From positions 1 through 64,000 of the forward strand of contig JAMPKV010000015.1 of the NCBI GenBank assembly GCA_039962225.1: a stretch of DNA of 64,000 bases, written 5' to 3'. The notes beneath the pieces were generated by a model. The model was not told the origin of the DNA and made no database searches. It saw nothing but the letters and a program-made list of their open reading frames with translations. A program made the position numbers and the translations under genes. The DNA is from Microcoleus sp. AS-A8. Lineage in GTDB: Bacteria > Cyanobacteriota > Cyanobacteriia > Cyanobacteriales > Coleofasciculaceae. This document shows positions 34,596-56,659 of this stretch, piece by piece. Positions within the stretch are counted from its first letter, which is position 1; each line of letters opens with the position of its first letter.

Positions 34596-37500
34596 TTAAT
34601 CACAGATATAGCGATTCTCTTCTGGTTTGATATTCGCCTGAGAATTTTTTAGGTAGTCATTGAGCAAACTACAGCCACGCACTAGTAGATCATTGAGATC
34701 GAAATTCCACAGAATCACGACTTTTTCATCACTAGCGGAAGCAATCGTCTTGCCGTCGGAGGAGAAACTCACGCTGTTGACACTACTGCGGTTACCTTCC
34801 AATGTTCTCAGGACATTTCCATCTAAGCTCCAGAATTTAAGCGTGTTGTCCGCACTCGCTGAAGCCAGGGTATAACCATCCGGGTGAAATCTGACGCTGG
34901 TAACTCGACCTAAATGTCCATAGAGGGTCGTGCGTAATGTCCCGTCTTTGTTCCAAAGTTTAATGGTGTTGTCAGCACTGGCAGAGGCAATGAGTTCCCC
35001 CTCGGGACTGAAACTCACGTCATTGACACTACTGGTATGTTTCTTTAAGGTATTGAGTTCAGTACCCTCAAGACTCCACAGTTTAACTGTCCTGTCGTTA
35101 CTCGCAGAGGCAATCGTCTTGCCATCCGGCGAGAAACTCACGCTATTCACCCAATCGCTATGCCCTGTTAGGGTTTTTTGTAATTTGCCATCCAGATTCC
35201 AGAGTCTAATCGTTTTGTCCGCACTGGCAGAGGCAATCGTCTCGCCATTCGGCGAGAAACTCACGCTATTCACCCAATAAGTATGCCCCGTTAGGGTGTG
35301 GAGTAACTGACCCTTAATGCTCCAAAGTTTAACCGTTTGATCAGCACTAGCAGAGGCAATCATCTGGCCATCCGGCGAGAAAGTCACGCTATTAACTATC
35401 CCATTGTGACCCGTGAGGGTGTGGAGTAATTGACCGTTAACGCTCCAAAGTTTAATTGTTTTGTCCGCACTGGCAGAGGCAATCATTTGACCATTAGGGC
35501 TGAAACTGGCACTCGTCACCTTCTGCTCGTGCATTTTAAGGGTTTGGAGTGGGATACGGTTAACGCTCCAAAGTTTAATGGTGTTGTCTGCACTCCCAGA
35601 AGCAATGGTTGTACCGTCTGAGGAGAAACTCACGCCTTGCACCCAATTGGCGTGCCCTTCTAGAGATTCCAGTAAGGTGCCATTGCTGTTCCAAAGTTTG
35701 ACCGTTTTGTCAGTACTCGCAGAAGCAATCGTCTTGCCATCTGGGCTAAACCTAACACTATTCACCCAATCTGTGTGCCCTTCGATAGTTCTTAGGAAAG
35801 TACCATCAAAACTCCAGAGTTTGACGGTTTTGTCATTACTACCAGAAGCAATCCGCTTACCATCCGGGCTAAAACTAACACTATTCACCCAATCTTGGTG
35901 TCCTGTCAGGGTTTTTACTTCAGTGCCATCAGCACTCCAGAGTTTGATGGTTGTGTCGTTACTACCAGAGGCAATCTGCTTGCCATCCAGGCTAAAACTA
36001 ACACTATTCACCCAATCTTGGTGTCCTGTCAGGGTTTTTACTTCAGTGCCATCAACACGCCAGAGTTTGACCGTTTTGTCATGACTCCCAGAGACAATTT
36101 TCTGGCTGTCGGGCGAGAAACTCACACTTTTAACCCGCCCCTGATGCCCTGTGAAAGTCCTTAACAAGGTACCATCAATGCTCCAGAGTTTGATGGTATT
36201 GTCATCACTCGCCGAGGCGATGAGCTTGCCATTGGGGCTAAAGCTGACACTATTGACGATCCCATTGTGTCCTTCGAGGGTTTTGGGTAAGGTGTTATCG
36301 AGCCTCCAGAGTTTAATCGTAGTATCCGCACTAGCAGAGGCAATCATTTTGCCATCCGGTGAGAAACTGACACTATTGACAATGCCGTTGTGCTGCTCTA
36401 AGCGGTTGCGTTCTTGAACTCTGTAGACCGACTGCTGTAGGCTACCTAAGGTTTGAAGTCGGATATCGGATGAAATCCTGCGACTCCTAAACGTAAATAA
36501 GGAGGTTCTTAACTCGTGTTCTAATTCCTTGAGGCGTTTACCGACTTTGACACTTTCAACTAATGCTCCAAGCTGATTGTCGGAGAGTAATAGCGCTGAA
36601 GATAAGGAACTGAGCGCTCTAATTTCAGCTATTTCTGCTCGTTTTCGTTGAGATTCTGCCAGCAGCGCCAATCCCCCCGCCATGAGGGCAAATACCGTTA
36701 CCACAATCACGGCAACGCCGACTTGCCTGCGCTGTCGGGAAACACGAGTTAGTTGTTGTTCGGTTAGTTTGCGTTGATTTCTTTCCCGTTGGAGTGCAGC
36801 TTCTAATCCTACCTCTGCGTCCTTTTTTTGACGGATGAAAGAGACTAAATAATCATGAACGAGTTGATAGCGATCGGCGGGGGCATCTGGCAGTAACATT
36901 AATAAGCCTGATTTGGTCAGGATTTCTAACACCAAATCGAGCTGTTCGTCCTTAGATTCTAATTCGGCATCCTCTAATTCCCCTGCTAACTCCGCACGAG
37001 TTTTAGGAGGACGTGTCCCATTTTCTTCGGTTAGCAAGTATAAAACCAGGAGAGCCGCCCGTGCATTGGGAGGGCCGCAATCTTTAATCGCTTCTTGTAA
37101 AAATCGCTCGACTAATTTTTGTTTAGGATTGAAACCCAGACGCTGATAGTCTTCTAAATTGACAATGGCCTCGGCGTGGAGTTGCGCTCCTACAACCTGT
37201 AATTCAATTGGGCTAACATCTCCTGTATCTTGCGCTAAATCTCGGACTAATTCATCAATTAGCGCGGATTCTAAGTAAAACTGAGAACGTTCATTTAAGC
37301 TATGGATAACGGCTTTCGCATCTTTGGGGGAAAAATTTCCTAAGTAATAGCGAATTTTTTTATCCAGAATATTGTTGTTGATGATATCTAAATTAGTGCA
37401 GCGTTCGCATTCTAATAAATAGTGGAGATAGTCTTCCCGTAAAGAGAGAATTACTTTGACATAAGGAATTTCCAGGCAGTCTCGCAGAAAATTATAAAGC

Positions 37501-39512
37501 AGACACCGGGTGCTTGGCTCGGAATAAATAAAGAAAAATTCTTCAATCTGATCGAAGATTAAAATCGTTAACAGATTTCGGTCTGCATTTTTCCGCAACT
37601 GGTTAATAATAAATTTAGGGATGTCATCTGGAATCCCTAAGTTGATGTCTCTAATTTCACTGAGAGCATCGACTAATGATACGCCTAAATCCCTCAATAA
37701 GGATTGACCCAAATCGTTGATCCAATTGGTGTAACCGCGCAAAACAATGGGGAGAGCATCGCGATCGCCGATTGCTTTTTGCTCTAAAGCGGGTACTAAC
37801 CCTGCTGTTACCAGAGAACTTTTGCCGACTCCTGAAGGGCCGTGAATGACGGTTAATTTATAATCTGTGCGACTAATGCGTTCAATTAAGCGATTAATAT
37901 CTTGTTGCCGACCGGAAGCTGCAATTTCTTGGGCAATGGTACTGAGTGTATCGACGGGGGCAATGGCTGGGTTAGCAACTTGGCATCGAGGCCGCAACTG
38001 ACTCGCACCGATAAAGGCTCGGAACCCATATTGATACTCAATTTCGCTTTGTTTTTGCTTAATCCGAAAGGCGTCTAGATAGCGGCCTTGGTTCCAATAG
38101 AGCGATCGCAACTCTACCAAAATCCGAATATAAAGAGATGGATCGATTTGAGGATTGCTTTTCGTTTTAGCAATTTCTAACAGTTTAATCGCTTGTGGAA
38201 CTTGACCTAGGTGCTTTTGGGCTTGGGCTAGCAATAATAGATATAAATTTTGATCGTGTCGTTGTGACCAGACATTATCGATGTTTTTTGTGAGTAAATC
38301 ACAGGATAATCGCGTTGATTTAGCATTTGTTTGTAAGGCTAGTTTGGCAAATTCTCTGGCTACCTTCCAAGCTCGATTGGAGAGCGCTAATTCAGCTAAT
38401 AGACCATAGCCATAAGAGAGTCGAATGGGATCGCAATAGGTTTGGTGTAATTGAACCGCTAATTTAGCGATCGCTTCTAGTTCATCCCACTGCTCTAGTT
38501 TTTGCAGGGTTTCACCCAAAGAGTTGATAAACTGACCCATCAAGTCAGGGCGATTACCCCGTTTAAAAACCTCAATACACTGTTGAAAATAATCCTTAGC
38601 TTGACTACAAGCAAAACGATATTCAGAGCGGCGTAGTGTTGCATATTTACGCCACCACAAGCCCAGATAGTACAGCAAACATCCAACGCGTTCAAATAAT
38701 TTAGGATTGAGCGATTGAGAGGGGGCATTCAATCGAATCGCTTCTGATTCCTGAGTTTTGAGTTGCTCTAACCAAAACGCTAGGCTACGCTCATAATATT
38801 GCCGAGACTCCTCCATGCGATCGTTGGTATCAGCATCCAGACCAATCAGAAATTGCAAATCTGCTTCTAACGCTGGCTCTAATACATCACCTCGATTTTG
38901 TAAATCTTTCAATGCTGACTCTAACTCTAAGCGGCGACGGGAACCCATCTCCAAATTCAGGTCAGTATTGTTGAGAAATTTACCCGAACCCGTTTTTAAG
39001 ATAGCCTCAAAGACCGATTCTGCATTTTGCTCTAGTGCTTTGATTAAGTCAGGAGTGGCAATGCTAAATCCAATGGGAGTGGCAGCCCAACTGGTAAAAT
39101 CGGGAGCCACCCGCATGAATTTTTGCAGCACCTCATCGGTTACCCACAACACTAAAGGGAACGAGAAATGTTTCCGAAACTCATCCCTGGCATGATTAGA
39201 GGCAATCAATAACCCCTCTAGATCGTTCACCAATTCCAATCCAGAAACGATAACGGCGTTGGGTTCTTCGTCGTCTAGTGCAGCACGAATCGTTGTATAA
39301 AGGGTTCGGGTAGAGGGTTTGAGAGTAATTTCTTTGAGTTCAACCGCACAGCGTTCTCGCAACTGTTGGAGCAAAGGCTGTCGCAATGACTGATAATTAC
39401 AGCGAGCTAAAACGAGGGAAAAAAAACCTTGAGATAGCGCGATCGCTCGTGCCAGAGTCCTTAATGATTCGTTATTTTTGGCATTGACATTGTCTAGGTG
39501 GCTCTCCATCAT
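34596..39512 (-). CDS. STAND NTPase with 14 WD40 repeats (module A)
   Basis: A 1638-aa signalling protein. N-terminal ~170 residues form a domain shared with the paralogue at 47519-52627 (FPLVLWVTDEVLQKFM, APDFTSWAATPI) that looks like an NTPase fold without a P-loop. Residues ~200-500 are TPR-like helices. The STAND-type NTPase follows with Walker A IHGPSGVGKSS (about 554-564) and Walker B ILIFDQIEEFFF. One hydrophobic helix (VAVIVVTVFALMAGGLALLA, about 930-950) precedes 14 WD40 repeats (about 1035-1605), enough for two seven-bladed propellers. STAND proteins act as ligand-triggered switches. It follows the module A ATPase by 121 nt on the same strand. No effector nuclease or protease domain is visible. 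Confidence 0.9.
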   Translation of the reverse strand: MMESHLDNVNAKNNESLRTLARAIALSQGFFSLVLARCNYQSLRQPLLQQLRERCAVELKEITLKPSTRTLYTTIRAALDDEEPNAVIVSGLELVNDLEGLLIASNHARDEFRKHFSFPLVLWVTDEVLQKFMRVAPDFTSWAATPIGFSIATPDLIKALEQNAESVFEAILKTGSGKFLNNTDLNLEMGSRRRLELESALKDLQNRGDVLEPALEADLQFLIGLDADTNDRMEESRQYYERSLAFWLEQLKTQESEAIRLNAPSQSLNPKLFERVGCLLYYLGLWWRKYATLRRSEYRFACSQAKDYFQQCIEVFKRGNRPDLMGQFINSLGETLQKLEQWDELEAIAKLAVQLHQTYCDPIRLSYGYGLLAELALSNRAWKVAREFAKLALQTNAKSTRLSCDLLTKNIDNVWSQRHDQNLYLLLLAQAQKHLGQVPQAIKLLEIAKTKSNPQIDPSLYIRILVELRSLYWNQGRYLDAFRIKQKQSEIEYQYGFRAFIGASQLRPRCQVANPAIAPVDTLSTIAQEIAASGRQQDINRLIERISRTDYKLTVIHGPSGVGKSSLVTAGLVPALEQKAIGDRDALPIVLRGYTNWINDLGQSLLRDLGVSLVDALSEIRDINLGIPDDIPKFIINQLRKNADRNLLTILIFDQIEEFFFIYSEPSTRCLLYNFLRDCLEIPYVKVILSLREDYLHYLLECERCTNLDIINNNILDKKIRYYLGNFSPKDAKAVIHSLNERSQFYLESALIDELVRDLAQDTGDVSPIELQVVGAQLHAEAIVNLEDYQRLGFNPKQKLVERFLQEAIKDCGPPNARAALLVLYLLTEENGTRPPKTRAELAGELEDAELESKDEQLDLVLEILTKSGLLMLLPDAPADRYQLVHDYLVSFIRQKKDAEVGLEAALQRERNQRKLTEQQLTRVSRQRRQVGVAVIVVTVFALMAGGLALLAESQRKRAEIAEIRALSSLSSALLLSDNQLGALVESVKVGKRLKELEHELRTSLFTFRSRRISSDIRLQTLGSLQQSVYRVQERNRLEQHNGIVNSVSFSPDGKMIASASADTTIKLWRLDNTLPKTLEGHNGIVNSVSFSPNGKLIASASDDNTIKLWSIDGTLLRTFTGHQGRVKSVSFSPDSQKIVSGSHDKTVKLWRVDGTEVKTLTGHQDWVNSVSFSLDGKQIASGSNDTTIKLWSADGTEVKTLTGHQDWVNSVSFSPDGKRIASGSNDKTVKLWSFDGTFLRTIEGHTDWVNSVRFSPDGKTIASASTDKTVKLWNSNGTLLESLEGHANWVQGVSFSSDGTTIASGSADNTIKLWSVNRIPLQTLKMHEQKVTSASFSPNGQMIASASADKTIKLWSVNGQLLHTLTGHNGIVNSVTFSPDGQMIASASADQTVKLWSIKGQLLHTLTGHTYWVNSVSFSPNGETIASASADKTIRLWNLDGKLQKTLTGHSDWVNSVSFSPDGKTIASASNDRTVKLWSLEGTELNTLKKHTSSVNDVSFSPEGELIASASADNTIKLWNKDGTLRTTLYGHLGRVTSVRFHPDGYTLASASADNTLKFWSLDGNVLRTLEGNRSSVNSVSFSSDGKTIASASDEKVVILWNFDLNDLLVRGCSLLNDYLKNSQANIKPEENRYICD

Positions 39513-39633
39513 GACTCAAAAAGTATGAAGTATGAATTGTTGGTATGTACCCCGTTTTCCTAGTCGCTAAATTTTGTCCTCCTTAAGGTTTATTTTGACG
39601 TTTGCCAATTCGCTACCGCTACCCTATCTTTGT

Positions 39634-40992
39634 TCACACTTCAGACTTGAGTTGTTTGGCTTCTCCTAAGATGGGGTTAATACGAAACCATCCCCCTTGA
39701 TCATCCTGATATTCAAAGACAAACAAACTGCGTAATAGAGTTTGGTATTCGTCCTCTCCTCTCACCATTTGGTTGTGTCCGACTTGCCGTAACAATTCCC
39801 ATTCATCATCATCAACGGCACGAACGAGAGCATCGCGTTGTCTTCTAATGATTTCTTCCAAACACTCACGAGAAAAAGGAGGGTCTTGCTGCTGAAGACA
39901 GCCATACATTAGCCCTAACAAATTCCGGGGATGTCCGCCACTAACTAGACAAAGACGGTCTAAGGTTTCAGAGGAATCAAACACCTCTGTTATGAATTGT
40001 AGGCGTTGTGCAGGTAAAACATCCGGGAAGGCTCTGGCGAGTACCATTTGCCTCAATAGTTCCATCCCATGCTTACATTCGCTGTCATCGCGCGATCGCA
40101 CCCGCACCATCGGCAACAATTTCGGGTCTACACCAAAGCGATTGCGTAGCCTCCCCCATTCGTTGGAAAAAATTAACACCAGGGGAATCGTATAAACAAC
40201 ATGACAATTCAGCTGTTTGAGCTGTTCGCCCCGGTCTACAAACAGATACTCGGGCTGAAGGCGACCTGTCGGTTTTAACGTGTTATCAACCCGGTCGAGG
40301 CTATCAACAATCACGACTAAACCGGTTTTTCCCTGTTTCTTGAGTTCTTGGATGGCAGGTTCTAATAACTCTTGGTTAATCGCGTCTAAAATGCCATCGG
40401 TGCGCGGTTCTAAATATTGCCTGAGTTGGGAACGAAATTTAGGGCTATTTTTAGCTTTTGCTGAGATTTTACCCAGACCGAAACCGAGGGAAAGTTCTCC
40501 TTCTGTACTCGCCTTAATTTCTCCTAATCCAGGCACAGAACCTTCTGCCGAAAGTTCAATTTCTGTTTGCATTAATTCGGTTACGCCTTGCAGTAACGCC
40601 CTGAAGCCTCGTGGTTTGAGATTGACTTTAGCTTGCTCCAAACTTTCCGTTACTTTGCGAGCAATGGCTAGCAAAATATCGGTTACGTCAACGTCCGCCA
40701 TCACCAAGTCTTTGCTGGAGTCGAAGTAGACGACATGAGAGCCTTGCCTTTCTAACTCGGCTTTGAGGAGTAACAACTCGGTCGATTTCCCACAGCCAAT
40801 ATGCCCTGTAAATAATTGGCACGTTGGCTCATTGGGAGCCAGGCGGGTAATCGTTCGTCCAAACTCTTGGATAATCTTGCCACCCCGAACCGGGGAGAAA
40901 TCGATATAATACTTCCGCTCCTCGGCATCCCCCACCGATACGGTGATGCTGGGATTACATGCCTTGTAAAATTTCTGCAAGTCGAGTTTCAT
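39634..40992 (-). CDS. P-loop ATPase of the island (module A)
   Basis: A 452-aa AAA-like ATPase with Walker A GHIGCGKST (residues 63-71) and Walker B LVVIVDSLDRVD (about 225-236). The N-terminus (DLQKFYKACNPS, RKYYIDFSPVRG) and the ATPase core are shared with the genes at 52573-53934 and with the first half of 43075-46020. After the ATPase core come HPRNLLGLMYGCLQ and a C-terminal winged-helix-like part. It is the first gene of module A, upstream of the STAND-WD40 gene. It probably works with that protein, as the same order recurs in module B. Its substrate is unknown. Confidence 0.85.
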   Translation of the reverse strand: MKLDLQKFYKACNPSITVSVGDAEERKYYIDFSPVRGGKIIQEFGRTITRLAPNEPTCQLFTGHIGCGKSTELLLLKAELERQGSHVVYFDSSKDLVMADVDVTDILLAIARKVTESLEQAKVNLKPRGFRALLQGVTELMQTEIELSAEGSVPGLGEIKASTEGELSLGFGLGKISAKAKNSPKFRSQLRQYLEPRTDGILDAINQELLEPAIQELKKQGKTGLVVIVDSLDRVDNTLKPTGRLQPEYLFVDRGEQLKQLNCHVVYTIPLVLIFSNEWGRLRNRFGVDPKLLPMVRVRSRDDSECKHGMELLRQMVLARAFPDVLPAQRLQFITEVFDSSETLDRLCLVSGGHPRNLLGLMYGCLQQQDPPFSRECLEEIIRRQRDALVRAVDDDEWELLRQVGHNQMVRGEDEYQTLLRSLFVFEYQDDQGGWFRINPILGEAKQLKSEV

Positions 40993-41412
40993 TGTTCCCT
41001 GTTCTGACAGCGCTGCTTCTATTGTCTACCGTTGCTATTTTAATCATTCCGTAAATCTTGCATCGAAGTGACTGCTACTTTGAGCATTCACGAGCATGGA
41101 GATACCTGTATCATCGGGCAAGCGGTGTCGATGGCTCCAGTTCTCTCTGAATAAGTTTGTTGGACGAGGGTTGATTGGAAAGGTTTCCCCAATAACGGTA
41201 ATTGTTAGGAAATTATTGATGGATAGCTATTTGTGGCTTTTGCGTCACTCTTAGATAATGAAAATTTAATAGAAAATGCTGTCTCATCCATTCAAAAAAG
41301 AGATGAGAAATTTTATGAGGATTGATATCAATTATATCATTTTTTCGATTTATCTATTTACAAAAATTTTTATCTTTAATAACATCATTATGTTGTTTAT
41401 TTAAATTTAGAT
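40993..41412. other. Non-coding stretch upstream of module A
   Basis: No gene seen. AT-rich, especially 41280-41400; should contain the promoter for the module A ATPase (minus) and for the 70-aa gene (plus). Confidence 0.5.
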
Positions 41413-41625
41413 ATGGAAGCCATTCATCAAGTCATTCGACTGAATTACACCTGTATCTCAGAGTGCATTCAAGCGGAGTTAACGTTTCTGTCTGAAGTTT
41501 CTGAACTCACGGATGATGAACGGTTCAGGCAGTCAATTGCGGAGGTGATTTACAGCCTCAATGATTTGTCGGATACCTTAACTTTGCAACGACGCTATCT
41601 GAAGTTTCGCTTTGATGCTGAGTAA
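41413..41625 (+). CDS. Small hypothetical protein, 70 aa
   Basis: A small acidic, helical protein (for example LTFLSEVSELTDDERFRQSI). No family is recognised and there is no membrane helix. The ATG is preceded only by AT-rich sequence without a strong Shine-Dalgarno. Amino-acid composition is protein-like, so it is listed with reserve. Confidence 0.5.
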   Translation: MEAIHQVIRLNYTCISECIQAELTFLSEVSELTDDERFRQSIAEVIYSLNDLSDTLTLQRRYLKFRFDAE

Positions 41626-41982
41626 CGGTTAGCTCGTTCGGCTTTTGTTTACCCCCCTAACCCTCCTCACTAAAGCTCCGGTTGCTAAGGGGGGAACAGG
41701 AAGTGGAAAATGCCATTCTCTTGCCTTTTTTTCCTTTTTAAGGGAGCGTCGGGCGGTTAACAAAGGCTGAGGGTATTCATGCGATCGGCTTTGTCGGTGC
41801 CTCTTGGGCGATCGCTTAATGAGTTCAAAGTAGAATGGCGTGATGACTTGCGATGCCGAAGGCAGTATGCTCTTCGACCATGCTTTGCAAACGCTTCGCG
41901 ACCATTGCCTGTCGAAATTCAGGCTAGGATTTAGAGTGTGGGTCGAAAAGTCTGCTTGGATAAAAGTAGGGAGCAATTCAAT
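41626..41982. other. Non-coding stretch with C-rich/G-rich repeat
   Basis: No gene seen. CCCCCC (41652-41657) can pair with GGGGGG (41689-41694) around CTCCTCACTAAAGCTCCGG, a relative of the hairpin repeats at 150-208. Confidence 0.5.
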
Positions 41983-42609
41983 ATGGCATACAGCGATTTT
42001 ACGACTCTCAGCAAAGTCAGAACAACATTTAATCTAACTATTGACGAAACAACCCGTCTTTTTCCCGACGTTGCCCCTATTGAACCTAGCGACTATCTCA
42101 AAACTACTCTGAATGAGTTTTTACCTCTTGCTAATGCTATCAATACCGAAAAAGCTCGCTCTGAGTTAATTATTGCCCCTGTTTTATTAGAAGTACGGCG
42201 ACACTTTAGCTTTCAAATCGGCTTTTTTTCGGGTACGGATTTTAACGTAGACCCTAAAGTTGGACTAAGCGGATACTGTGACTATATTCTCACTGCTTCT
42301 AAAGAAATGTATGAAATCTACGCCCCAGTAGTCACTCTTGTAGAAGCTAAAAACGAAAATATTAAAAGTGGATTAGGACAATGCATTGCTGAGATGGTGG
42401 CTGCCCAACGTTTCAACCAGCAAAGGGAAACTGCAATTGATACTATCTATGGAGCTGTAACCACAGGAATGATTTGGAAGTTTCTCAAGCTGGTTAATCA
42501 AACAGCGTTTATTGACCTTGACGATTACTTTATTAAAGAAATTGATCAAGTTTTGGGGATATTATCCGCTCCGCTGAGTCAGTATGTATCGAATAAAAAT
42601 AACCTATGA
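41983..42609 (+). CDS. PD-(D/E)XK-like nuclease-fold protein
   Basis: A 208-aa protein with the elements of a PD-(D/E)XK nuclease: an N-terminal helix carrying Glu (ARSELIIAPVLLEVRR), then Asp in LSGYCDYILT and the E-x-K element in VVTLVEAKNENIKSGL, followed by a helix with a Gln (GQCIAEMVAAQRF). This order fits a Mg-dependent DNA-cutting core. Similar short proteins are common in cyanobacteria and annotated as hypothetical. The ATG at 41983 was chosen because an AGGGAG Shine-Dalgarno lies about 8-13 nt upstream. It sits between the module A ATPase and the fused ATPase gene. Confidence 0.75.
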   Translation: MAYSDFTTLSKVRTTFNLTIDETTRLFPDVAPIEPSDYLKTTLNEFLPLANAINTEKARSELIIAPVLLEVRRHFSFQIGFFSGTDFNVDPKVGLSGYCDYILTASKEMYEIYAPVVTLVEAKNENIKSGLGQCIAEMVAAQRFNQQRETAIDTIYGAVTTGMIWKFLKLVNQTAFIDLDDYFIKEIDQVLGILSAPLSQYVSNKNNL

Positions 42610-43074
42610 GTTCATCCAAAAGTTACCTTAAAACTTACGCACAGCCTCTATCTGTAAAGTGTGTGACGGTGGCATAACGCGCCATTGCCGCTATATATAG
42701 TGTCACTGCGTAAGTCCTGACATTCAACATCGCTGCTATTAACGCTGATCACATCCTAGTATTCAGGATATGGGTTGGAGTGCGATCGCTCTTTGGTTGT
42801 GCCAACGGCATCTGAAACTAAGTTCCGCAATGCTCCTGTTGAAGCTAGGTTACAGCTTACCGAACTAGATGCGAGAGAAAGGGGGGCATCGCATCACCTC
42901 TTCCTTAGAACATCACTCCCTCATTCTCATCGTCAGACCAGTAGGTTATCTTTGAGTAGCAAGCTTGGGAAGGGCGGCAACTACTAAAGCCAGAACCCTC
43001 GATCAGACAGCGGTTTTAGATGTTTCCTTACCTTGCTCACCCCTCAGATGGGTTAGTTATTCATAAAAACTATC
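42610..43074. other. Non-coding stretch carrying a MITE-like element
   Basis: Contains the element at 42633-42715. The rest (42716-43074) has no convincing gene; a short open frame at 42775-42987 has no family and unlikely composition. The promoter of the fused ATPase gene should lie in its right part. Confidence 0.5.
42633..42715. mobile_element. MITE-like element with 9-bp terminal inverted repeats
   Basis: ACTTACGCA at 42633-42641 and TGCGTAAGT at 42707-42715 are perfect complements that bound an 83-bp segment without coding capacity. These ends match the common cyanobacterial MITE/IS end AGGACTTACGCA, seen on the right side as TGCGTAAGTCCTG. No target duplication is clear. It lies between the nuclease-like gene and the fused ATPase gene. 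Confidence 0.65.
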
Positions 43075-46020: not shown

Positions 46021-47216
46021 GAACTCGCCCCTTTGATAACTTTAGACTAGCAATCACCGACCCCCTCTACTTCTTCGGACGCTGCGATTTACTTTCAGAA
46101 ATTCAGCGATCGCCCTTTGAGGTGCGGGTTATTTTGGGTGGAAGTCGTATGGGCAAAACTAGCGCTCTCAATGGTGTCCGATTACATTTTCTAGACACTG
46201 GAAGCCAAAAGTCTTTTCGAGCATTTCCCATTTTGTTTGACTTCCAACGAGAGCAACCTAAAAGCCTGGAGAACTTTCTCTATCTTCTAATTGCCCGATT
46301 GCGGGAAGCAATTGCTAACCCTCAACAAGAACCCAGCTCAGAATCGAATTGGCGACAAACCTACCGCCGATTCTTGAGGCAATTATCAGGAGCAGAAGTT
46401 GGAATCTTTGGAATCAAACTCAACGTCACAAATCCAAACCAGGAACGTTGCTTAGTTCAAGAAGACTTTCGCCAAGATTTACTAGCAATTATCAAGCAAC
46501 TACAGAAGCATGAATTTGAAGGAGTTTGCTTCCTGTTCGATGGAGCAGAATTTATCATCAGCCAAGATTGGGCGAATCATGCTTGGAGTTATCTGCGATG
46601 GTTAAAGGATATGGACACTGCCATCAGCCCCTTTTTGGGGCTGGTATTATCTGGTTATCGTGACTTAAAAAATTACCAGCAGCGCACGGGTTCCCCATTG
46701 TTGAATATTGCTAAAGTCGAGTGGTTAAGCCTATTAACTGAATCAGAAATACGGACACTGATTGCCCGTCGTTGTGAGAATGAGCAAATTCAGCTTACTG
46801 AACAGGTAGTGAATGCAGTTATAGTGTGGGCAGGGTGTCATCCCTACTTAACCCAACAGATGCTCAACGCTATCTTTGATAATCGCCGTCTGGACAAATC
46901 TCGCTCTCCCAAGGATTTAATCCGTCACCTGATTAGGCAGCAGCACGATAAAGATTTTTCAGCTTTGTGGGACGGCAAGACAAAGAGTTATGGCTTCAGT
47001 GAAAAGGAGCAAGCAGTTTATCTAGCACTGGTTAAACAAAGGCAGGGAAGCGGTGAAACTTTAGCATCACAAGTTCAGCTAAGTTTTGGAGAAGTGGAAG
47101 ATACGCTTGAGGTGCTTGCAGGCACTGGTGTAATTCGGCAGTTAGATGATGAGCGGTATGCAGTGGGCGCAAAGCTCTTTGAGCAGTGGGTTGCACAGGA
47201 TAGACGCTTACCTTAG
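46005..47216 (+). CDS. AAA-like NTPase partner
   Basis: A 403-aa P-loop NTPase starting DPLYFFGRCDLL, the same FFGR lead-in as the second domain of the upstream protein. Walker A is GGSRMGKTS (45-53); the Walker B strand is GVCFLFDGAEFI. The C-terminal ~100 residues (KDFSALWDGKTKSYGFSEKE onward) look like winged helices that may bind DNA or a partner. The ATG overlaps the upstream stop by 16 nt, so translation is coupled and a complex between the two products is likely. Family resemblance to cyanobacterial AAA-like proteins is clear; function is unknown. Confidence 0.83.
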   Translation: MAAQIRTRPFDNFRLAITDPLYFFGRCDLLSEIQRSPFEVRVILGGSRMGKTSALNGVRLHFLDTGSQKSFRAFPILFDFQREQPKSLENFLYLLIARLREAIANPQQEPSSESNWRQTYRRFLRQLSGAEVGIFGIKLNVTNPNQERCLVQEDFRQDLLAIIKQLQKHEFEGVCFLFDGAEFIISQDWANHAWSYLRWLKDMDTAISPFLGLVLSGYRDLKNYQQRTGSPLLNIAKVEWLSLLTESEIRTLIARRCENEQIQLTEQVVNAVIVWAGCHPYLTQQMLNAIFDNRRLDKSRSPKDLIRHLIRQQHDKDFSALWDGKTKSYGFSEKEQAVYLALVKQRQGSGETLASQVQLSFGEVEDTLEVLAGTGVIRQLDDERYAVGAKLFEQWVAQDRRLP

Positions 47217-47257
47217 GTAAGAAAAGAGGGTACTTGATTAAATTTTAAAAACATGTG

Positions 47258-47476
47258 GCTATCTTTAGTCCTAGACGTAATCTTGGCAATGCAGACAGAA
47301 AACTCCACATCGCTGATTTCCACAGGCGTTTGCAAAATCTCGCCAATCTCGCGAAACAGATTCACAAAGTTCCAGGTTTCAGGTTAATTTGAATCGCTTC
47401 CAGACTTTCACTGACTGAACGTGCGATCGCAAGCATGATATCCGTCACACCGACATCCGCCATTTCCAACACTTGG
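47258..47476 (-). pseudogene. Decayed fragment of a fourth island ATPase
   Basis: On the minus strand the sequence reads MADVGVTDIMLAIARSVSES, LEAIQINLKPG, then after a one-base frameshift near 47373 VNLFREIGEILQTPVEIS and IAKITSRTKDS. Intact copies read MADVDVTDILLSIAGQVSES, KLKPGYFANLF and GKITAKTKESP at the same places. Only about residues 95-185 of the family remain; Walker A is absent upstream and the core is missing downstream. It is therefore a remnant of a deleted or recombined copy lying just after the module B STAND-WD40 gene. Confidence 0.85.
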
Positions 47477-47512
47477 CCTTTTGCCTTCTGCCTTCTGCCT
47501 TTTGCCTTCTGC
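47473..47512. repeat. GCCTTCT / GCCTTTT heptamer tandem repeat
   Basis: Five to six consecutive 7-nt units (GCCTTTT, GCCTTCT, GCCTTCT, GCCTTTT, GCCTTCT) separate the ATPase relic from the stop of the STAND-WD40 gene. Heptamer arrays of this kind are typical of filamentous cyanobacteria and prone to slippage or recombination. Confidence 0.75.
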
Positions 47513-47518
47513 TATACC

Positions 47519-50500
47519 TCAAGGTTTTGGCAGAAATTCACTAGAAACCCCTTGAATCCCCTCACACAAACCACGAGAGTCCCCAGAAATTGCTGAAGTT
47601 CCTAACCCCGCCGCGTCAACACTATCCGGCACTCCTACGCTAATCGCATCGCTAATACGGAGACGGTTGGGATTCTTCAGATAATCATGCAGCCAAGTAC
47701 AACCCTGCTGGAGCAAATCCTCCAAATCCAAATTCCACAGAATTACACTTGTATCTGCACTAGCCGAAGCTAACCACCTGCCATCTGGACTAAAACTCAC
47801 CCCATAAACCTCAGCGCTGTGACCCTGCAACGTCTTAATCAAATTGCCGTCCCGACTCCAAAGATTCACCTTTCTATCTTCACTGGCGGAAGCAATTAAC
47901 TTCCCATCGGGGCTGAAACTTACCCCATTAACGGCACCATTATGTCCCTTCAAGGACAGGATTGGCTGTTCCTTACGACTCCAACTGTCCCACTTCCAGA
48001 GGTTGACGGTTCCATCACTACTCGCCGAAGCCATCAACTTCCCATCAGGACTAAAACTCACCCAATTGACAGCATCATTATGTCCCTTCAACGTCGTCAG
48101 CAACTTACCGTCATTGCGCTGCCATAGTTTCACGGTTTTGTCTTCGCTAGCAGAAGCGATTAACTTCCCATCAGGACTGAAACTCACGCCCCTCACGTCA
48201 CTATCATGACCGGTTAACGTTTGCTGAAAAGAGCCATCCGCTTTCCAAAGCTTCACCGTATTATCAGCACTACTAGAGGCAATGAACTCACCGTCGGGAC
48301 TAAAACTTACACTCGTCACCGCCTCCTCATGCCCGACTAAGGTGTTCAGCAACGTGCCATCCGCTTTCCAAAGCTTCACCGTTTTGTCGTCACTGGCTGT
48401 AGCCAGAGTCTTGCCGTCGGGCGTCCAACTCACATGATTGACGGTATCCTGATGCGCCTGAAAACTGACGAGTAATCGACCATCTTGATGCCAAAGTTTT
48501 ACCGTTTTATCGTCACTGGCTGTGGCAATTGTCTTGCCGTCGGGCGTCCAACTCACATGATTGACGCTATCGCTATGACCCTTGAGGGTTTTAAGTGAGC
48601 GGCTCTTGATGTACCACAGTTTAATAGTATTGTCGGCACTGGCACTCGCCAGAGTCTGACCCTGGGGACTGAAGCTCACTCCTTGAACCAAATTCCCATG
48701 CCCTTTCAGGGTTTCTATCAAGGTGCCGTCCCGACGCCAGAGTTTAACCGTGTTATCCGCACTGGCACTCGCCAACATCTGACCATCGCGGCTGAACGTG
48801 ACATTGACCACCCAATTATTATGTCCCCTCAAGGTTTGCATCCGAACACCGTCACGACGCCAGAGTCTAACGGTTCTGTCGGCACTCGAACTCGCTAGCA
48901 CCTGGCTATCTGGACTAAAACTGACACTCATCACGGCGGCATCATGAGCCTTCCAGCTTTTGAGGAAAGTGCCATCCCGACGCCAGAGGGTGATAGTCTG
49001 ATCTTTACTCGCAGAGGCAATTAGCTGACCATCCGGGCTGAAACTCACCCCCATCACCCGATCCGTATGTCCGGTTAGGGTTTTCAGCAACACACCATTC
49101 GTGTTCCAGAGTTTCACCGTGCCGTCCCAACTGGCAGAAGCCATGATGGTGTTGTCGGGGCTAAAACTCACCATCGAGACGGGAGCGGTATGACCGTTCA
49201 AGGTGTTGAGTAGGACACCGTCACTCCGCCACAACTTGACGGTTGTATCTTCACTGGCAGAGGCGATTAGCTTACCATTTGGGCTAAAACTGACGCTATA
49301 CACCCCAGCCTGATGACCCGGTAAGTTTTTCACGAAGGTGCCATCTGCTTGCCACAGTTTGAGCGTGGTATCCTTACTGCCTGAAACCAGGAGTTGACCG
49401 TCAGGACTCCAACTCACGCTACTCACCCAATCGGTATGCCCCTCCAAGCGGTTGTACTCTCTCACCCCATACACTGTCTGCTGTAGAGCCGTAATCACTC
49501 GTGTCCGAGTTTCCGCCGTTGCCCCTAAAGACCGTTTCAAATCTCGACCGGCGCGGATACTTTTGAGCAAGGCATCAAACGGTCGGTTCGTGGCTACGAG
49601 TGCTTCTGAGGAAGCACTCAACGCATTGAGCTGGGCATTCGTTTCGCCAATTACGGCGCGTAACCCCAATCCTAGGGCAATGATTGTAATCGTGAAAAGC
49701 GCGAGGCCAACGTAACGTGCTTCTCGCAGACTTTTTTTCAGGACTTGATTGAGTTGTTCCTCAGTTTTCCGCTGTTTGGCTGTGGCTTGTGCGAGTTTGC
49801 CTCGCAGTTCTTTTTCTCTGAGTTCGGCGCGCAGTTGTTCAATCTCACTTTGACTGAGTTTGTCTTTTTGGCGGAGTTCCTCTAATTCATTTTGGATTCT
49901 TAATTGCTTCTTTTGGCGGATAAATTCGACTAAATAATCATGTATTAGTTGATAGCGGTTAGCTGGAACTTCGGGCAACAAAAAAACTAAACCCGATTTC
50001 TCTAAAATTTCTAAAATTAAATCAAGTTGTTCAGATTCAATAGCTGATTCGGCGGCTAATTCAGCACGGGTTTTCAGCGGACGATTGTCATTTTCATCGG
50101 TGAGTAAGTGCAGCACCAGCCAGGCCGCATATTCATTTTCCGGCCCACAATCTTGAATCGCTTTTTCTAAAAATCGCTCAACCAGCCTTTGCTTCGGACC
50201 CGATTGTCGATACCGCTCCAGGGTGGTAATGTTCTCCTCTTGCAGTTGTGCACCGACCACTTGTAACTCAATGGGACGAACGGCACCCAATCCGTCTGCT
50301 AAATCCTGCACTAATTCATCAATGAGCGAGGATTCTAAATAAAAATGAGCCCGCTCTGTTAAACTTTGGATGACGGCACGGGCATCTTCTAAAGAAAAGT
50401 TTCCTAAAGGATAACGAATGGATCGGTCTAGAATGTTATTATTAATAACTTCTAGTTCGTTGACTTGTTCAATTTCTAATAAATAATGCAGGTAATCTTC

Positions 50501-52627
50501 CCGAAGGGAAAGAATAACTTTCACAAAAGGAATATTGAGACAAGCATTTAAGAAATCATAAAACAGGAAGCGCTGGAAGATAGTAGAAACAAAGAAAAAT
50601 TCTTCAAATTGATCGAAGATCAGAATTGTTAATAAGTTATGTTCGGCGTTTTGTCGTAACTTTTCGAGGATGGTTTGGATGGTTTGTTGAGCATCTTGAC
50701 GGGGTTTTAAGCGCAAGTTAATCGGTTGCTCAACGGCATTGTTGTCAAAGTCATAAAGCGCTTGAGCCAAAGCGTTTCTCAGTTCCCCGATCCAATCGGT
50801 GTAATAGGGGGGGACTATCGGCAATGCCATGCGATCGCCCAATGAGCGGTGTTTCAACGCTGGGATTAACCCTGCCATCACAATTGAACTCTTCCCCACC
50901 CCAGATTGACCATGAATCACGGTCAATTTCTGGTCTGATCGCGTCATCCGTTCAATTAAGCGTTGCACATCGTGCTTGCGCCCAGATGCTTCAATTTCCT
51001 GAGCCACAATCTCTTGTTGCTCGACAGGTGCCAAGGTGGGGTTTGTTAAAGGTCTGCGGGGCTGGAGACGAGCCGCACCAATAAAGGCTCTAAAGCCATA
51101 CAACTGCTCAACCGCCCGTTGTTCTTGCTTAACCTGAAAGGCTTCTAAGTATCGACCTTGCTCAAAATAAAGGTGACGCAGTCCTTCGAGTAAGTGCAGG
51201 TAACGCTGGGGTTCGTAGTGATGCTCACTGGCTGTGATCGCCTGTTGCAGTCCCACACTGGCGACTTCCAGGTGCCGCCCTGCTTCCTCCAGTTGACCCA
51301 GTTGGCGCAGCGCTTGCACCAAAAATAATAAATATAACTGGGCGAGTAAGAATCGGTGTAAGCCCTGATTCTGACTCGGCGGAGCACTGACTTCGGCCAA
51401 AATGGAGATGGCTTGTTGAGCATAGTTGTTCGCTTGGGCCCACTGCGACTGCCGGATTGCTACCTGCGCCAGAAAGCCGTAATCCTGAGCCAGTTGTGCC
51501 TTGGAACCATAAGTTTGATGTAATTTCAGAGACTTGTGCGCCACCTGTTTGAGCACATCCCAAGCTTCTAGGCGTTCAAGCACCTCCGCCAGTTGAGTGA
51601 TAAACTGAGCCACTAAATCGGAACGTTTGGCCTGCTCAAACGCCTCCACACATTGCTGAAGATAAGGCCATGCTTCTTCTAAGTTGCGGTGTCGTTGCGT
51701 CCGATGCAAGTCACCCTGGCGGCAATAACATAAGCCCAGATGAAACAACAGGACTCCCTGCCGTTCTAAATGATGGCTGGCACGCCAAAACCGCAAGCTT
51801 TTTTGGTAACGAGCGCTCGCAGAATCAATCAGGTCGCTGGCATAATCATATTGTCCCAGGACGAATTCTAAACCCGCTTGTAATTCGGGTTCGATTACTT
51901 GTCCGCGACATTGCAAATCTTTGAGGGCAGAATCGAGTTCGAGGCGCGATCGGCAATCGGTGGCTAGATTCAGGAAGGAATGATGTGTACAAATCCGCCA
52001 AGGTGCATATCGACCCGAACCCCCATGTAACACGGTTTTGAACAGGGAATTTGCCTTTTGGCGCAGGAAATCAATTAACTCGCTGGTGGCAATTTCAAAC
52101 TTAATCGGCGTGGCAGCCCAACTGGCAAAATCCGGGGCAAACCGTACCAGTTTTTGCAGCACCTCATCATTCACCCACAAGATTAAAGGAAAAGGAAGTC
52201 GTTTGCGAAACTCATCTCGCACTTGATTGGTAGAAGTGAGTAAGTCTTCAAGCGCGTCTACAGACTCTAGTCCCAGGATGAAGAGGGCGGGGGGAGTGGG
52301 AGAGGGGGGGAGTGATTCCGCTTGTGTGTCTTTCGGATTCCCTTGTCCCCCTGCTTTTTGTCCCGTCTCTAGTCCGCCGTGACTATAAACTTGGATTGTG
52401 GTGTAAAGCGTTGTTACTGATGTCGGGAGTTCTAACTGACGAATCTCGTAGCGGTTCTCGGAAAGTTCTTGCAGTTGACGCAGGATGCGCTCTCGCAGGC
52501 GCTTATAGTTACAGCGCACTAACACCAGGGAAAATTCGCCTTCGGAAAATGCGATCGCGCGATCGAGCGCTGTTAAGGAGCGTTCGTTGTATACCGCAAC
52601 CTCTGATGGTCGTTGTGTTTCAACCAT
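47519..52627 (-). CDS. STAND NTPase with 14 WD40 repeats (module B)
   Basis: A 1702-aa paralogue of the module A protein with the same order: degenerate N-terminal domain (FPLILWVNDEVLQKLV, APDFASWAATPI), TPR-like helices (about 240-520), STAND NTPase with Walker A IHGQSGVGKSS (about 570-580) and Walker B ILIFDQFEEFFF, a coiled coil (RQKDKLSQSEIEQLRAELRE), one hydrophobic helix (LALFTITIIALGLGLRAVI), then 14 WD40 repeats. The N-terminal region carries a low-complexity insertion absent from module A. The start overlaps the end of the module B ATPase by 55 nt, which implies coupling. The C-terminal ~60 residues after the propeller are unique. Likely a ligand-triggered switch; the trigger is unknown. 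Confidence 0.9.
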   Translation of the reverse strand: MVETQRPSEVAVYNERSLTALDRAIAFSEGEFSLVLVRCNYKRLRERILRQLQELSENRYEIRQLELPTSVTTLYTTIQVYSHGGLETGQKAGGQGNPKDTQAESLPPSPTPPALFILGLESVDALEDLLTSTNQVRDEFRKRLPFPLILWVNDEVLQKLVRFAPDFASWAATPIKFEIATSELIDFLRQKANSLFKTVLHGGSGRYAPWRICTHHSFLNLATDCRSRLELDSALKDLQCRGQVIEPELQAGLEFVLGQYDYASDLIDSASARYQKSLRFWRASHHLERQGVLLFHLGLCYCRQGDLHRTQRHRNLEEAWPYLQQCVEAFEQAKRSDLVAQFITQLAEVLERLEAWDVLKQVAHKSLKLHQTYGSKAQLAQDYGFLAQVAIRQSQWAQANNYAQQAISILAEVSAPPSQNQGLHRFLLAQLYLLFLVQALRQLGQLEEAGRHLEVASVGLQQAITASEHHYEPQRYLHLLEGLRHLYFEQGRYLEAFQVKQEQRAVEQLYGFRAFIGAARLQPRRPLTNPTLAPVEQQEIVAQEIEASGRKHDVQRLIERMTRSDQKLTVIHGQSGVGKSSIVMAGLIPALKHRSLGDRMALPIVPPYYTDWIGELRNALAQALYDFDNNAVEQPINLRLKPRQDAQQTIQTILEKLRQNAEHNLLTILIFDQFEEFFFVSTIFQRFLFYDFLNACLNIPFVKVILSLREDYLHYLLEIEQVNELEVINNNILDRSIRYPLGNFSLEDARAVIQSLTERAHFYLESSLIDELVQDLADGLGAVRPIELQVVGAQLQEENITTLERYRQSGPKQRLVERFLEKAIQDCGPENEYAAWLVLHLLTDENDNRPLKTRAELAAESAIESEQLDLILEILEKSGLVFLLPEVPANRYQLIHDYLVEFIRQKKQLRIQNELEELRQKDKLSQSEIEQLRAELREKELRGKLAQATAKQRKTEEQLNQVLKKSLREARYVGLALFTITIIALGLGLRAVIGETNAQLNALSASSEALVATNRPFDALLKSIRAGRDLKRSLGATAETRTRVITALQQTVYGVREYNRLEGHTDWVSSVSWSPDGQLLVSGSKDTTLKLWQADGTFVKNLPGHQAGVYSVSFSPNGKLIASASEDTTVKLWRSDGVLLNTLNGHTAPVSMVSFSPDNTIMASASWDGTVKLWNTNGVLLKTLTGHTDRVMGVSFSPDGQLIASASKDQTITLWRRDGTFLKSWKAHDAAVMSVSFSPDSQVLASSSADRTVRLWRRDGVRMQTLRGHNNWVVNVTFSRDGQMLASASADNTVKLWRRDGTLIETLKGHGNLVQGVSFSPQGQTLASASADNTIKLWYIKSRSLKTLKGHSDSVNHVSWTPDGKTIATASDDKTVKLWHQDGRLLVSFQAHQDTVNHVSWTPDGKTLATASDDKTVKLWKADGTLLNTLVGHEEAVTSVSFSPDGEFIASSSADNTVKLWKADGSFQQTLTGHDSDVRGVSFSPDGKLIASASEDKTVKLWQRNDGKLLTTLKGHNDAVNWVSFSPDGKLMASASSDGTVNLWKWDSWSRKEQPILSLKGHNGAVNGVSFSPDGKLIASASEDRKVNLWSRDGNLIKTLQGHSAEVYGVSFSPDGRWLASASADTSVILWNLDLEDLLQQGCTWLHDYLKNPNRLRISDAISVGVPDSVDAAGLGTSAISGDSRGLCEGIQGVSSEFLPKP

Positions 52628-53934
52628 AATTTAAATTGCTGCGTCTCTGCTAAAGCCGGATTGAGTCCAAACCACGTTCCATCCTTGTCGCGGTATTCAA
52701 ATACAAACATGCTACGCAACAGGGTTGTGTATTCTGTATCTCCCCGGACGGTTTGATTTTGCACCACCTGAAACAGCAACTTCCACTCATTCTCATCAAT
52801 AGATGAGGTTAAGTAATCGCGGCTTTCTCGAATCACGCTCTCCAAACACTCACGCGAGATCGGTGGATTTTCATGTCTGAGGCAACCAAACAGCAACCCC
52901 ATTAAGTTCCGCACATGACCCCCACTAATACGGCACAAGCGGTCTAGTGTATGGTGAGTATCAAACACGGATGTGATCAACTGTAGCTGTTTTTCCGTTG
53001 ACTCGTTGGGGAAGGCTCTCACCATCACCATCTGCCGTAAAAGCGCCATACCCTCTTCACATTCTGTGCCATCCCGCCGTTGCACCGGCACCATCGGCAA
53101 GATTGTGGGAGGGATGCCACCCCCTAAACGATTTTTCAGGGTTTCGCAATCATTGGAGAAGTTCAACGACAGGGGAATCGTATAAACCACATGACAATTG
53201 AGTTTTCGCAACTGTTCCCCCCGATCCACAAAAAGATACTCCGGTTGTGTGCGTCCGGAGGGGAGGGTGCGAATATCCAGGCGATCGAGGTTGTCTACAA
53301 TCACGACTAATCCCGCTTGTCCCCGTCGCTTCAGTTCGGTTGTGGCGCGATCGAGAAGTTCGTTGTTAATGGATTGTAAAATCCCCGCTGTGCGAGGTTC
53401 CAAATATTCCCTCAAGCGCCGTCGCAGTTTGGGACTTTCTTTGGTTTTGGCTGTAATTTTGCCAATTCCAATGGATAACTCGGCCTCGGTTTCAAAGTCA
53501 ATCGGGGTTTGCAAGAAATCGGCAATTTCTGTAAACAAATTGGCAAAGTAACCGGGTTTGAGTTTAATTTTAATTTGCTCCAGACTTTCACTCACCTGAC
53601 CGGCGATGCTCAGCAAAATATCTGTCACATCCACGTCAGCCATGTCTAAGTCTTGAGACGACTCAAAATAAACCACCAGGAACCCTTCTTGCTCTAACTC
53701 GGCTTTTAGTTTGAGCAATTCTGTGGATTTTCCACAACCAATATGTCCTGTAAATAATTGACAGGTTGGCTCATCTGGCGAAATTAGGGTAATCGTTCGC
53801 TTCAGTGACTCAATGATTTTTTTGCCTCGGACTGAGGAAAAATCAATATAGTACTGTCGGTCTTCACTCTTCCCCATGACGAGGGGTTTGCTGGGATTAC
53901 AGGCTCTATAAAATCTCGGTAGATCGAGTCCCAT
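52573..53934 (-). CDS. P-loop ATPase of the island (module B)
   Basis: A 453-aa paralogue of the module A ATPase, closer in sequence to the first half of the fused protein (QYYIDFSSVRG, VYFESSQDLDMADVDV). Walker A is GHIGCGKST (about 63-71), Walker B LVVIVDNLDRLD. The region around DNRLGG, HVRNLMGLLFGCLRHENPP and the C-terminal winged-helix-like part are conserved in the fused copy too. It is first in its module, and its 3' end overlaps the start of the STAND-WD40 gene by 55 nt, so the two proteins are probably made in fixed ratio. Confidence 0.87.
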   Translation of the reverse strand: MGLDLPRFYRACNPSKPLVMGKSEDRQYYIDFSSVRGKKIIESLKRTITLISPDEPTCQLFTGHIGCGKSTELLKLKAELEQEGFLVVYFESSQDLDMADVDVTDILLSIAGQVSESLEQIKIKLKPGYFANLFTEIADFLQTPIDFETEAELSIGIGKITAKTKESPKLRRRLREYLEPRTAGILQSINNELLDRATTELKRRGQAGLVVIVDNLDRLDIRTLPSGRTQPEYLFVDRGEQLRKLNCHVVYTIPLSLNFSNDCETLKNRLGGGIPPTILPMVPVQRRDGTECEEGMALLRQMVMVRAFPNESTEKQLQLITSVFDTHHTLDRLCRISGGHVRNLMGLLFGCLRHENPPISRECLESVIRESRDYLTSSIDENEWKLLFQVVQNQTVRGDTEYTTLLRSMFVFEYRDKDGTWFGLNPALAETQQFKLWLKHNDHQRLRYTTNAP

Positions 53935-54766: not shown

Positions 54767-54871
54767 ATGACAAGTAACCACGAACTAGTCGGCAGAGCAT
54801 TAGGGCTTCTACATCAGGGTTTGTATCCCTTCATAGAGCGAGAAATGTGTTCAGTTTATGGCGATCGCTGA
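54767..54871 (+). pseudogene. Detached 5' end of the HEPN-ParA gene (frameshift)
   Basis: From the ATG at 54767 the reading frame gives TSNHELVGRALGLLHQGLYP and FIEREMCSVYGDR, then a TGA at 54869. This is the typical N-terminus of Swt1-like HEPN domains (NHExVGxAL...FVERE...YGDRW). The next frame continues with IMEATPSVPKDP. Adding a single G after CGCTG would give DRWIMEAT and join both frames, so a one-base deletion (true or from sequencing) is the simplest reading. Confidence 0.8.
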
Positions 54872-56097: not shown

Positions 56098-56098
56098 T

Positions 56099-56659
56099 AT
56101 GGCTGAATTATACGATGAGATTGAAACTAGACCCTATCTTCTCTATCTGAATCAAATCAATCTCCCTGAAGCAAGTTCGGAGCTTCCAGAAGCTGAGATT
56201 AATAATATTGCTGAAGGTTTGGGAAAGAAGGGAATTAACTTTGCTCTTCCTTTAGTTTGCCTTACTGAGGAAGAAGACCAGTATCAGTTACTAACTGGAC
56301 TGCCAATCTATAAAGCGGCTGAGGCGGCTGAGGTTCCGAAGATTTGGGTATTTCTTATTGCAGCAAAGCAACCAGAGGCAGAGGAAACTGTTGAACAAGC
56401 TATTTTGCAGTCAAGGCACAATCAGAGAGTAGGAAAGACTCCAGATGAGCCTTCAGTTCCTAAAAAAGACTTCTTAGAGTTTGTTAATGATGAAAACTCT
56501 GACCTTACTTTAATTTCTGGAATTGGCAAAACCTCTGCTAAACGGATTGCGGATAATCGCCCTTACACGTCTCTGGAAGATATGCAGAAGAAGCTTAGTT
56601 CTAAGGCACCTTTGAAGAAGTGGCTAAAAGCATATCAGCAGAATGACAATCTAAAGTAA
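56099..56659 (+). CDS. ParB-like protein with helix-hairpin-helix
   Basis: A 186-aa protein. The N-terminal half resembles a ParB/sulfiredoxin-like fold (YLNQINLPEASSELPEAEIN, LVCLTEEEDQYQLLTGLPIY). The C-terminal half carries a helix-hairpin-helix of the form LTLISGIGKTSAKRIADNRP, a non-specific DNA-binding unit. No classic ParB KorB-type HTH is seen. The ATG at 56099 follows the ParA stop by one nt, so the two form a tight partition-like pair. It may deliver the HEPN-ParA to DNA; that is inference. Confidence 0.75.
   Translation: MAELYDEIETRPYLLYLNQINLPEASSELPEAEINNIAEGLGKKGINFALPLVCLTEEEDQYQLLTGLPIYKAAEAAEVPKIWVFLIAAKQPEAEETVEQAILQSRHNQRVGKTPDEPSVPKKDFLEFVNDENSDLTLISGIGKTSAKRIADNRPYTSLEDMQKKLSSKAPLKKWLKAYQQNDNLK

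Follow-up and report, generated by a model that had tools for sequence, protein, structure and literature searches.

Multicellular cyanobacteria have many STAND proteins that carry WD40 repeats, and to our knowledge the partners of these proteins are mostly unknown. The question of what such a partner might be is raised by a 64,000-nucleotide stretch of Microcoleus sp. AS-A8 (contig JAMPKV010000015.1, positions 1 to 64,000; hereafter the window), in which the genes of two large STAND-WD40 proteins, S1 and S2, each lie behind a separate gene for a P-loop ATPase, A1 and A2. An earlier note, made from the sequence alone, had taken this constant pairing for a distinct two-component NTPase system. 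Here we find that the pair formed by this type of ATPase (A) and by a domain at the N-terminus of the large protein (N) is real and widespread in cyanobacteria. We also consider it fairly probable (roughly 0.55) that the modules of the window are two-protein NTPase (STAND) switches in which N docks A.

Two paralogous ATPase-STAND modules

The seven open reading frames (ORFs) of the locus have the gene order and coordinates that the earlier note had given. Those of the two modules, with the domains of the large proteins (lengths in amino acids, aa; TM, predicted transmembrane segment), are as follows.

39634-40992, minus strand: A1, partner ATPase in module 1, 452 aa, with the Walker A motif GHIGCGKS (ORF list and domain scan)
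34596-39512, minus strand: S1, 1638 aa, N-TPR-nSTAND1-TM-WD40x14, module 1 (ORF list, domain scans, hydropathy)
38868-39512, minus strand: N domain of S1, first ~215 aa, without Walker A (N profile)
36840-37913, minus strand: nSTAND1 of S1, residues 534-891 (105.5 bits, cut-off 27.1)
36660-36716, minus strand: predicted transmembrane segment of S1, residues 933-951 (hydropathy only)
34683-36407, minus strand: WD40 region of S1, 14 repeats, end approximate (domain scan)
52573-53934, minus strand: ATPase A2, 453 aa, module 2, overlapping S2 by 55 bp
47519-52627, minus strand: S2, 1702 aa, N-TPR-nSTAND1-TM-WD40x14, module 2
51953-52627, minus strand: N domain of S2, first ~225 aa (N profile)
49850-50983, minus strand: nSTAND1 of S2, residues 549-926 (113.1 bits, cut-off 27.1)
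49649-49705, minus strand: predicted transmembrane segment of S2, residues 975-993 (hydropathy only)
47693-49453, minus strand: WD40 region of S2, 14 repeats, end approximate (domain scan)

The two modules are indeed paralogous, with 60% identity between A1 and A2 and, between S1 and S2, 41% over the N-terminal region and 52% over that of nSTAND. Both large proteins passed the PF20703 (nSTAND1) cut-off and showed 14 WD40 matches each, which bears out their assignment as STAND-WD40 proteins. A1 and S1 are separated by a gap of 121 bp. A1 and A2, both of them P-loop ATPases, matched the AAA_22, ATPase_2 and KAP models weakly. Since A2 was 82-83% identical to a Symplocastrum ATPase, and thus nearer to it than to its window neighbours, the modules are old paralogues rather than the product of a fresh local duplication.

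The N domain and ATPase A as sequence families

This genome encodes six full A genes, three in the window and one on each of contigs C9, C2 and C38. The C38 ATPase is followed by a 681-aa TPR protein, not by a STAND-WD40 protein, and the start of this TPR protein aligned with the N-terminal domain of S1 and S2 (24% identity); for this reason separate profiles were used for A and N. The N domain comprises ~165-220 aa at the N-terminus of the large protein, and it was found alone, before TPRs, or before TPR-nSTAND1-WD40. It carries no name in the family libraries searched: when 13 N domains were scanned no Pfam family was common to them, the first giving no match and the remaining matches falling to 12 families with one member apiece, and no sequence or profile match to the PDB was obtained up to E 5. 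The A profile gave six matches to solved structures (E 0.012 to 0.94), mostly P-loop proteins. Walker A was intact in 189/189 A domains, rows below 330 aa being left out of this count, and absent from all 278 N copies. The strand-helix pattern of N, as judged by eye, hints at a decayed P-loop domain, which we offer only as a suggestion.

A and N pair across cyanobacteria

Co-occurrence was assessed in 292 genomes spread over the cyanobacterial phylum, with profile searches that took in about 5 candidates per genome for A and about 10 for N, so that the copy numbers are minimum values. A occurred in 65 genomes and N in 67, with both present in 64; one genome had A only (G097) and three had N only (G235, G282 and G038). 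The corresponding Fisher p was 1e-59, a value that ignores relatedness between genomes. The searches listed 150 matches for each profile, to which the pairing counts refer. For 103 of the 150 N matches, the same strand carried an A gene no more than 5 kb upstream, where ~0.2 would be expected by chance in 6-Mb genomes. The flanks of the 47 unpaired N and 48 unpaired A matches were then retrieved and recounted gene by gene, yielding 3 more N pairs and 27 more A pairs, plus one in reversed order. Altogether, 130 of the 150 listed A matches adjoin an N gene (one with reversed order); the other 20 comprise 7 at contig ends and 13 with sequence continuing.

Close relatives of the window ATPases were taken as the best 80 of 286 matches from one contig scan, all in records titled cyanobacteria, including Coleofasciculus, Moorena, Symploca, Calothrix and Nostoc. 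A partner gene followed A in 77 of these 80: 66 encode a complete N-nSTAND-WD40 protein, 7 are cut by the contig end and 4 have another N arrangement. The three without a partner comprise two that end within 300 bp and one (L013) that has no N. The ORFs of A and its partner, read from the first start codon, overlap in 72 of the 77 pairs. Hence the system that the earlier note had proposed is conserved far beyond this genome, with a gene order that is not genome-specific and, among these relatives, usually a STAND-WD40 neighbour. The idea of a constant partner holds in part: among close relatives this is N-nSTAND-WD40, but the constant element is the N domain and not STAND-WD40, as distant pairs have N with TPRs only, or N alone.

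In a census of 155 of 201 operons, namely those clear of the ends of the retrieved stretches, 88 had a single A and a single N, 39 contained only N and 19 only A; four were N-A-N, four held two copies of each, and one was A-A. The two-of-each operons were three A-A-NN-STAND and one with two A-N modules in a row, so A and N numbers are matched in most double operons. Tandem N occurred in 3/3 operons in which two A genes precede one N protein, an arrangement impossible in the 88 one-A-one-N operons; two of the three are homologous operons with A-TIR fusions (see below), and the three therefore represent about two independent events. Within genomes, the distance profiles of A and N agreed more closely for cognate than for swapped partners in 13 of 14 comparisons, although the margin was narrow in several. 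Family code f7 includes 8 genomes with A, and in every one of these an A gene without adjacent N coexists with an N-STAND-WD40 gene without adjacent A (in one of them, G195, the unlinked A gene ends at the contig edge).

Two side observations concern unusual arrangements. Stand-alone N genes of ~165 aa without A nearby were seen at 21 loci among L165-L194, one of them in this genome (C1:404788-405255, L166), and at 10 loci a gene lies close by whose sequence, read by eye, is SLH-like and glycoside-hydrolase-like. In the fusion at L061:7089-9974, another P-loop and TPRs precede an A-type ATPase, and the genes after it encode a normal A and a STAND protein with tandem N.

Predicted receptor features of the N-STAND-WD40 proteins

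The number of WD40 repeats was 14 in 63 of 68 proteins, 13 in three and 15 in two. Between nSTAND1 and WD40, the linker of 94 of the 104 distinct N-STAND-WD40 proteins contains a hydrophobic 19-residue segment at a threshold of 1.6, and in 81 of these 94 its nSTAND1-facing side is the more positive; at a threshold of 2.0, 77 of the 104 score in the linker and 1 outside it. This segment suggests a membrane receptor, and the positive-inside rule would place N, TPR and nSTAND1 in the cytoplasm and WD40 outside.

In rapidly diversifying receptors of the HET-E type, a WD40 repeat resembles the other repeats of its own protein more than it does the repeat at the same position in an orthologue. Such within-protein similarity was not seen in 22 Nostoc orthologues, whose repeats shared 0.83 identity at the same position against 0.54 at other positions, with the best match at the same position in 93% of cases. 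Mean domain identities in these orthologues were 0.93 (A), 0.80 (N), 0.83 (TPR), 0.89 (nSTAND) and 0.83 and 0.82 (WD40). The conservation of the repeats, together with a fixed chromosomal place (see below), speaks against fast-evolving recognition in the Nostocales orthologues. The argument is less strong for module 2 of the window because the positional signal was weaker in the set that contains S2: 12 Coleofasciculus/Moorena-type orthologues gave 0.68 against 0.56, with 51% of best matches at the same position.

Chromosomal neighbourhoods

Of the 65 loci L024-L088, which are Nostocales-like, 37 have tatC upstream on the opposite strand, and a Rieske-type gene and a cytochrome f gene, both read by eye, were found in 29 and 28, respectively; the sequence extends for 9 kb to either side in 40 of the 65, and TatC was confirmed by Pfam. 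Another A group has ftsQ divergently adjacent, with ftsZ behind ftsQ, at 29 loci that include the C9 copy of this genome and represent 27 genomes in 8 family codes plus two named contigs (an FtsQ-type POTRA domain and FtsZ were confirmed by Pfam for L089). N follows A at 26 of these 29 loci, two are cut by the contig end and one (G229, L211) lacks N. Beyond ftsZ, the next gene could be read at 19 loci, and at 10 of these it looked thiD-like by eye. When 167 of the 189 distinct A sequences were assessed, 29 adjoined ftsQ, 37 tatC and 101 neither, the last figure being an upper bound as many stretches are short. In terms of relatedness, a single clade of 25 takes in 21 of the 29 ftsQ rows. The window's own A copies adjoin neither ftsQ-ftsZ nor tatC.

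TIR fusions, plasmid copies and matches to defence models

In two operons, A is fused to a TIR domain, a type of domain that cell-death systems employ (TIR_2, E 1.5e-33 and 1.2e-31), and followed by an N-N-STAND gene: one is on plasmid4 of Calothrix sp. NIES-4101 (L247), which is mobilizable, and the other in G024 (L281). No further full-length A-TIR was found among the matches listed (386 genomes searched). By eye, the TIR domain seemed to be followed by an adaptor-like tail, which gave no Pfam match and is not claimed. A was present on 9 plasmid records, 8 cyanobacterial and 1 acidobacterial, of which 6 were examined. A-N-STAND-WD40 pairs lie on one conjugative Acaryochloris plasmid and two Nostoc plasmids, and in the acidobacterial record a shortened A-like gene stands before that of a TPR protein, which matches N weakly and over a short length (E 6.5e-5). 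On another plasmid, p057_J of Nostoc sp. C057 (L252:3796-6720), a distant A-type domain forms the C-terminal part of a SAV_2336 N-terminal domain-related protein, whose gene stands directly behind that of a MoxR ATPase, a possible bridge to MoxR conflict systems.

Scans with defence models gave no specific PADLOC match to the window ATPases. The mad8 model matched A1, F (the fused ATPase described below) and A2 with E 1e-7 to 2e-5, but also a ParA-type neighbour with E 5e-5; PDC-S20 matched A1 (E 5.7e-5), and HEAT-ARM_XIII matched S1 (E 4e-54) and S2 (E 8e-47) through the WD40 repeats only. Domain scans recognised no effector domain in A1, S1, A2 or S2. Two NCBIfam hints, far under their cut-offs (SLATT_4 for S1, E 0.019; an anti-phage model for A1, E 0.061), were not used. 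A phage origin was rejected: A2 had no match in 50,697 phage records, and an IMG/VR scan returned 47 pattern-matched stretches with zero relatives among them. In view of the A-TIR fusions and the plasmid copies, defence is a plausible role of some copies; for those of the window, a part in conflict or self/non-self recognition is conjectural.

The fused ATPase and other genes of the window

Between the modules, the plus strand carries a fused ATPase and a third P-loop gene, and the minus strand the remains of a further A gene.

43075-46020, plus strand: fused ATPase F, 981 aa; A-type over residues 1-431, then an AAA_16/nSTAND1-like P-loop (FC)
46005-47216, plus strand: third P-loop protein T, 403 aa, TrmB-like C-terminus, 16-bp overlap with F
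47255-47478, minus strand: A-type ATPase gene remnant between T and S2, in two pieces, one with an internal stop

The fusion that had been read from the sequence is sound, the start of F being 69% identical to A2. The third P-loop gene is likewise present, its P-loop read by eye, with only an AAA_35 match at E 0.018; T is weakly related to FC (22% identity, E 2e-5). Counted gene by gene, the flanks of F hold no N gene. FC-T was rejected as a conserved part of the system, as the pair occurs in just one other genome (G030) of 244. There (L303:8567-12774), FC stands behind a HEAT-like lipoprotein start, by eye, and not behind an ATPase, and neither A nor N was detected on the 17.7-kb piece with the pair. 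We take F to be a local fusion between A and an independent FC-T pair. The local duplicates, the fusion and the decayed copy together suggest turnover in the window.

Two neighbouring loci deserve mention. At 54847-56659 (plus strand) lies a ParA-type ATPase gene with an N-terminal Swt1-like HEPN (E 5e-27; PADLOC PDC-M28B, E 1e-12), adjoined by a gene whose product weakly matched ParB_N and helix-hairpin-helix models. At 41938-42609 (plus strand), between the modules, a gene encodes a PD-DExK-type protein (PADLOC model, E 4e-53); it was rejected as an effector, since it had 5 matches in the first locus set, 3 of them the window gene itself, and is unlinked to A-N loci.

Discussion

We propose that the large protein would act as sensor and switch in one. 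Its WD40 propellers, most likely across the membrane, would bind a signal, and the nSTAND1 ATPase on the inner side would turn signal binding into oligomerisation. At the other end of the large protein, the N domain would bind and hold the partner ATPase A, and clustering of N would gather A subunits, which, with active Walker A and B, may give the output by ATP-driven remodelling; in rare members the output may pass through the TIR domain fused to A.

Several results weigh against this proposal. No similarity was found in a profile comparison of N with A. As many as 13 A genes, including F and the C2 copy, have no N although the sequence continues, and 44 of the 150 listed N matches have no adjacent A (21 stand-alone and 23 longer, 3 of these at contig ends). 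The four N-A-N operons depart from a 1:1 ratio, and the A-A operon has no N. The mirror-tree correlation of A and N (0.96, 88 pairs) could be explained by linked inheritance alone. Finally, the transmembrane call is made from hydropathy only, and 77 of the 104 proteins score also outside the linker at a threshold of 1.6, and 25 at 1.8.

These orphan A and N genes would fit a simpler account, in which there is no two-protein machine and the genes are adjacent for co-expression only, each product acting alone. We regard it as highly improbable, in view of the near-identical genome sets of A and N, the matched A and N duplications in three operons, and the coexistence of A and N even where they are unlinked. 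An anti-phage or conflict system, in which WD40 senses an invader, STAND fires, and the ATPase or a fused effector kills or arrests the cell, is possible but somewhat unlikely. It would agree with the A-TIR operons, one of them on a mobilizable plasmid, with the pairs on the conjugative and two other plasmids, with the expansion and decay of A genes in the window, with the HEPN-ParA and PD-DExK type genes nearby, and with the published prediction of STAND proteins as conflict sensors (PMC7159879, PMC10907252). The window ATPases lack a specific PADLOC match, however, no effector domain was recognised in either module, and there are fixed loci at ftsQ-ftsZ and tatC; moreover, the Nostoc WD40 repeats hold their position and are about as conserved as N and TPR, though less than nSTAND and A.

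Those fixed loci would rather suit a conserved regulator of a cyanobacterial envelope or division process, with the window extras as lineage-specific paralogues. The spread of the ftsQ-ftsZ-side loci over 8 family codes, with the gene beyond ftsZ common to just 10 of 19, speaks for it, as do the second A group beside tatC, the 0.93 identity of A among the Nostoc orthologues and the predicted membrane receptor. We still judge it quite unlikely, as a gene neighbourhood may be inherited without function, the loci were found via A, which biases the comparison, and one ftsQ-side locus (G229) has A without N while two are cut; the window copies adjoin neither place, and plasmid pairs and A-TIR fit a pure housekeeping role poorly. 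Both the defence and the envelope/division role thus have evidence, possibly in different A-N groups.

The two-protein switch that we favour resembles several known systems. Like other STAND/NLR-like receptors with nSTAND1 (PF20703) and WD40, S1 and S2 have nSTAND1 above the cut-off and a C-terminal repeat sensor, but an N-terminal domain without a Pfam family replaces the known effector, a separate ATPase gene is coupled, and a hydrophobic segment lies between nSTAND1 and WD40. KAP NTPases typically carry membrane segments inside the P-loop domain. A2 (29.1 bits) and F (30.9 bits) pass the KAP cut-off of 20 (PF07693) and A1 (18.7 bits) falls below it, yet 179 of the 189 A domains lack a hydrophobic segment at the threshold used, which is present in 10. 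Plant sensor/helper NLR pairs likewise consist of NTPase receptors that work together, one as the sensor and the other as the executor, in some cases with TIR; here the partner is a KAP/AAA-like ATPase, and homology was compared for STAND and TIR only. The MoxR-vWA ternary conflict systems of the iSTAND type (PMC7159879) also have several NTPases per operon, one without the catalytic motif, and are enriched in multicellular bacteria, whereas the core here is the A-N dyad, and no MoxR or vWA Pfam match was found among 19 window proteins scanned. No account of the A-N pair turned up in passages of PMC7159879, PMC10907252, PMC4365693, PMC8195603 and PMC5587647 or in searches of an open-access library that covers few subscription journals.

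A broader scenario, which we hold to be rather unlikely, is that the A-N dyad (a dead docking N and a dedicated A) would be an undescribed signalling core in a membrane-spanning STAND-WD40 receptor, placed anciently at ftsQ-ftsZ as an envelope/division checkpoint and later carried on plasmids with TIR. If true, one A-N switch would serve both cell biology and defence. The regular partner ATPase and the common docking-type domain offer a concrete handle on the partners of STAND-WD40 proteins, the ftsQ-ftsZ neighbourhood hints at where a phenotype might be sought, and the A-TIR variant yields a directly testable defence hypothesis.

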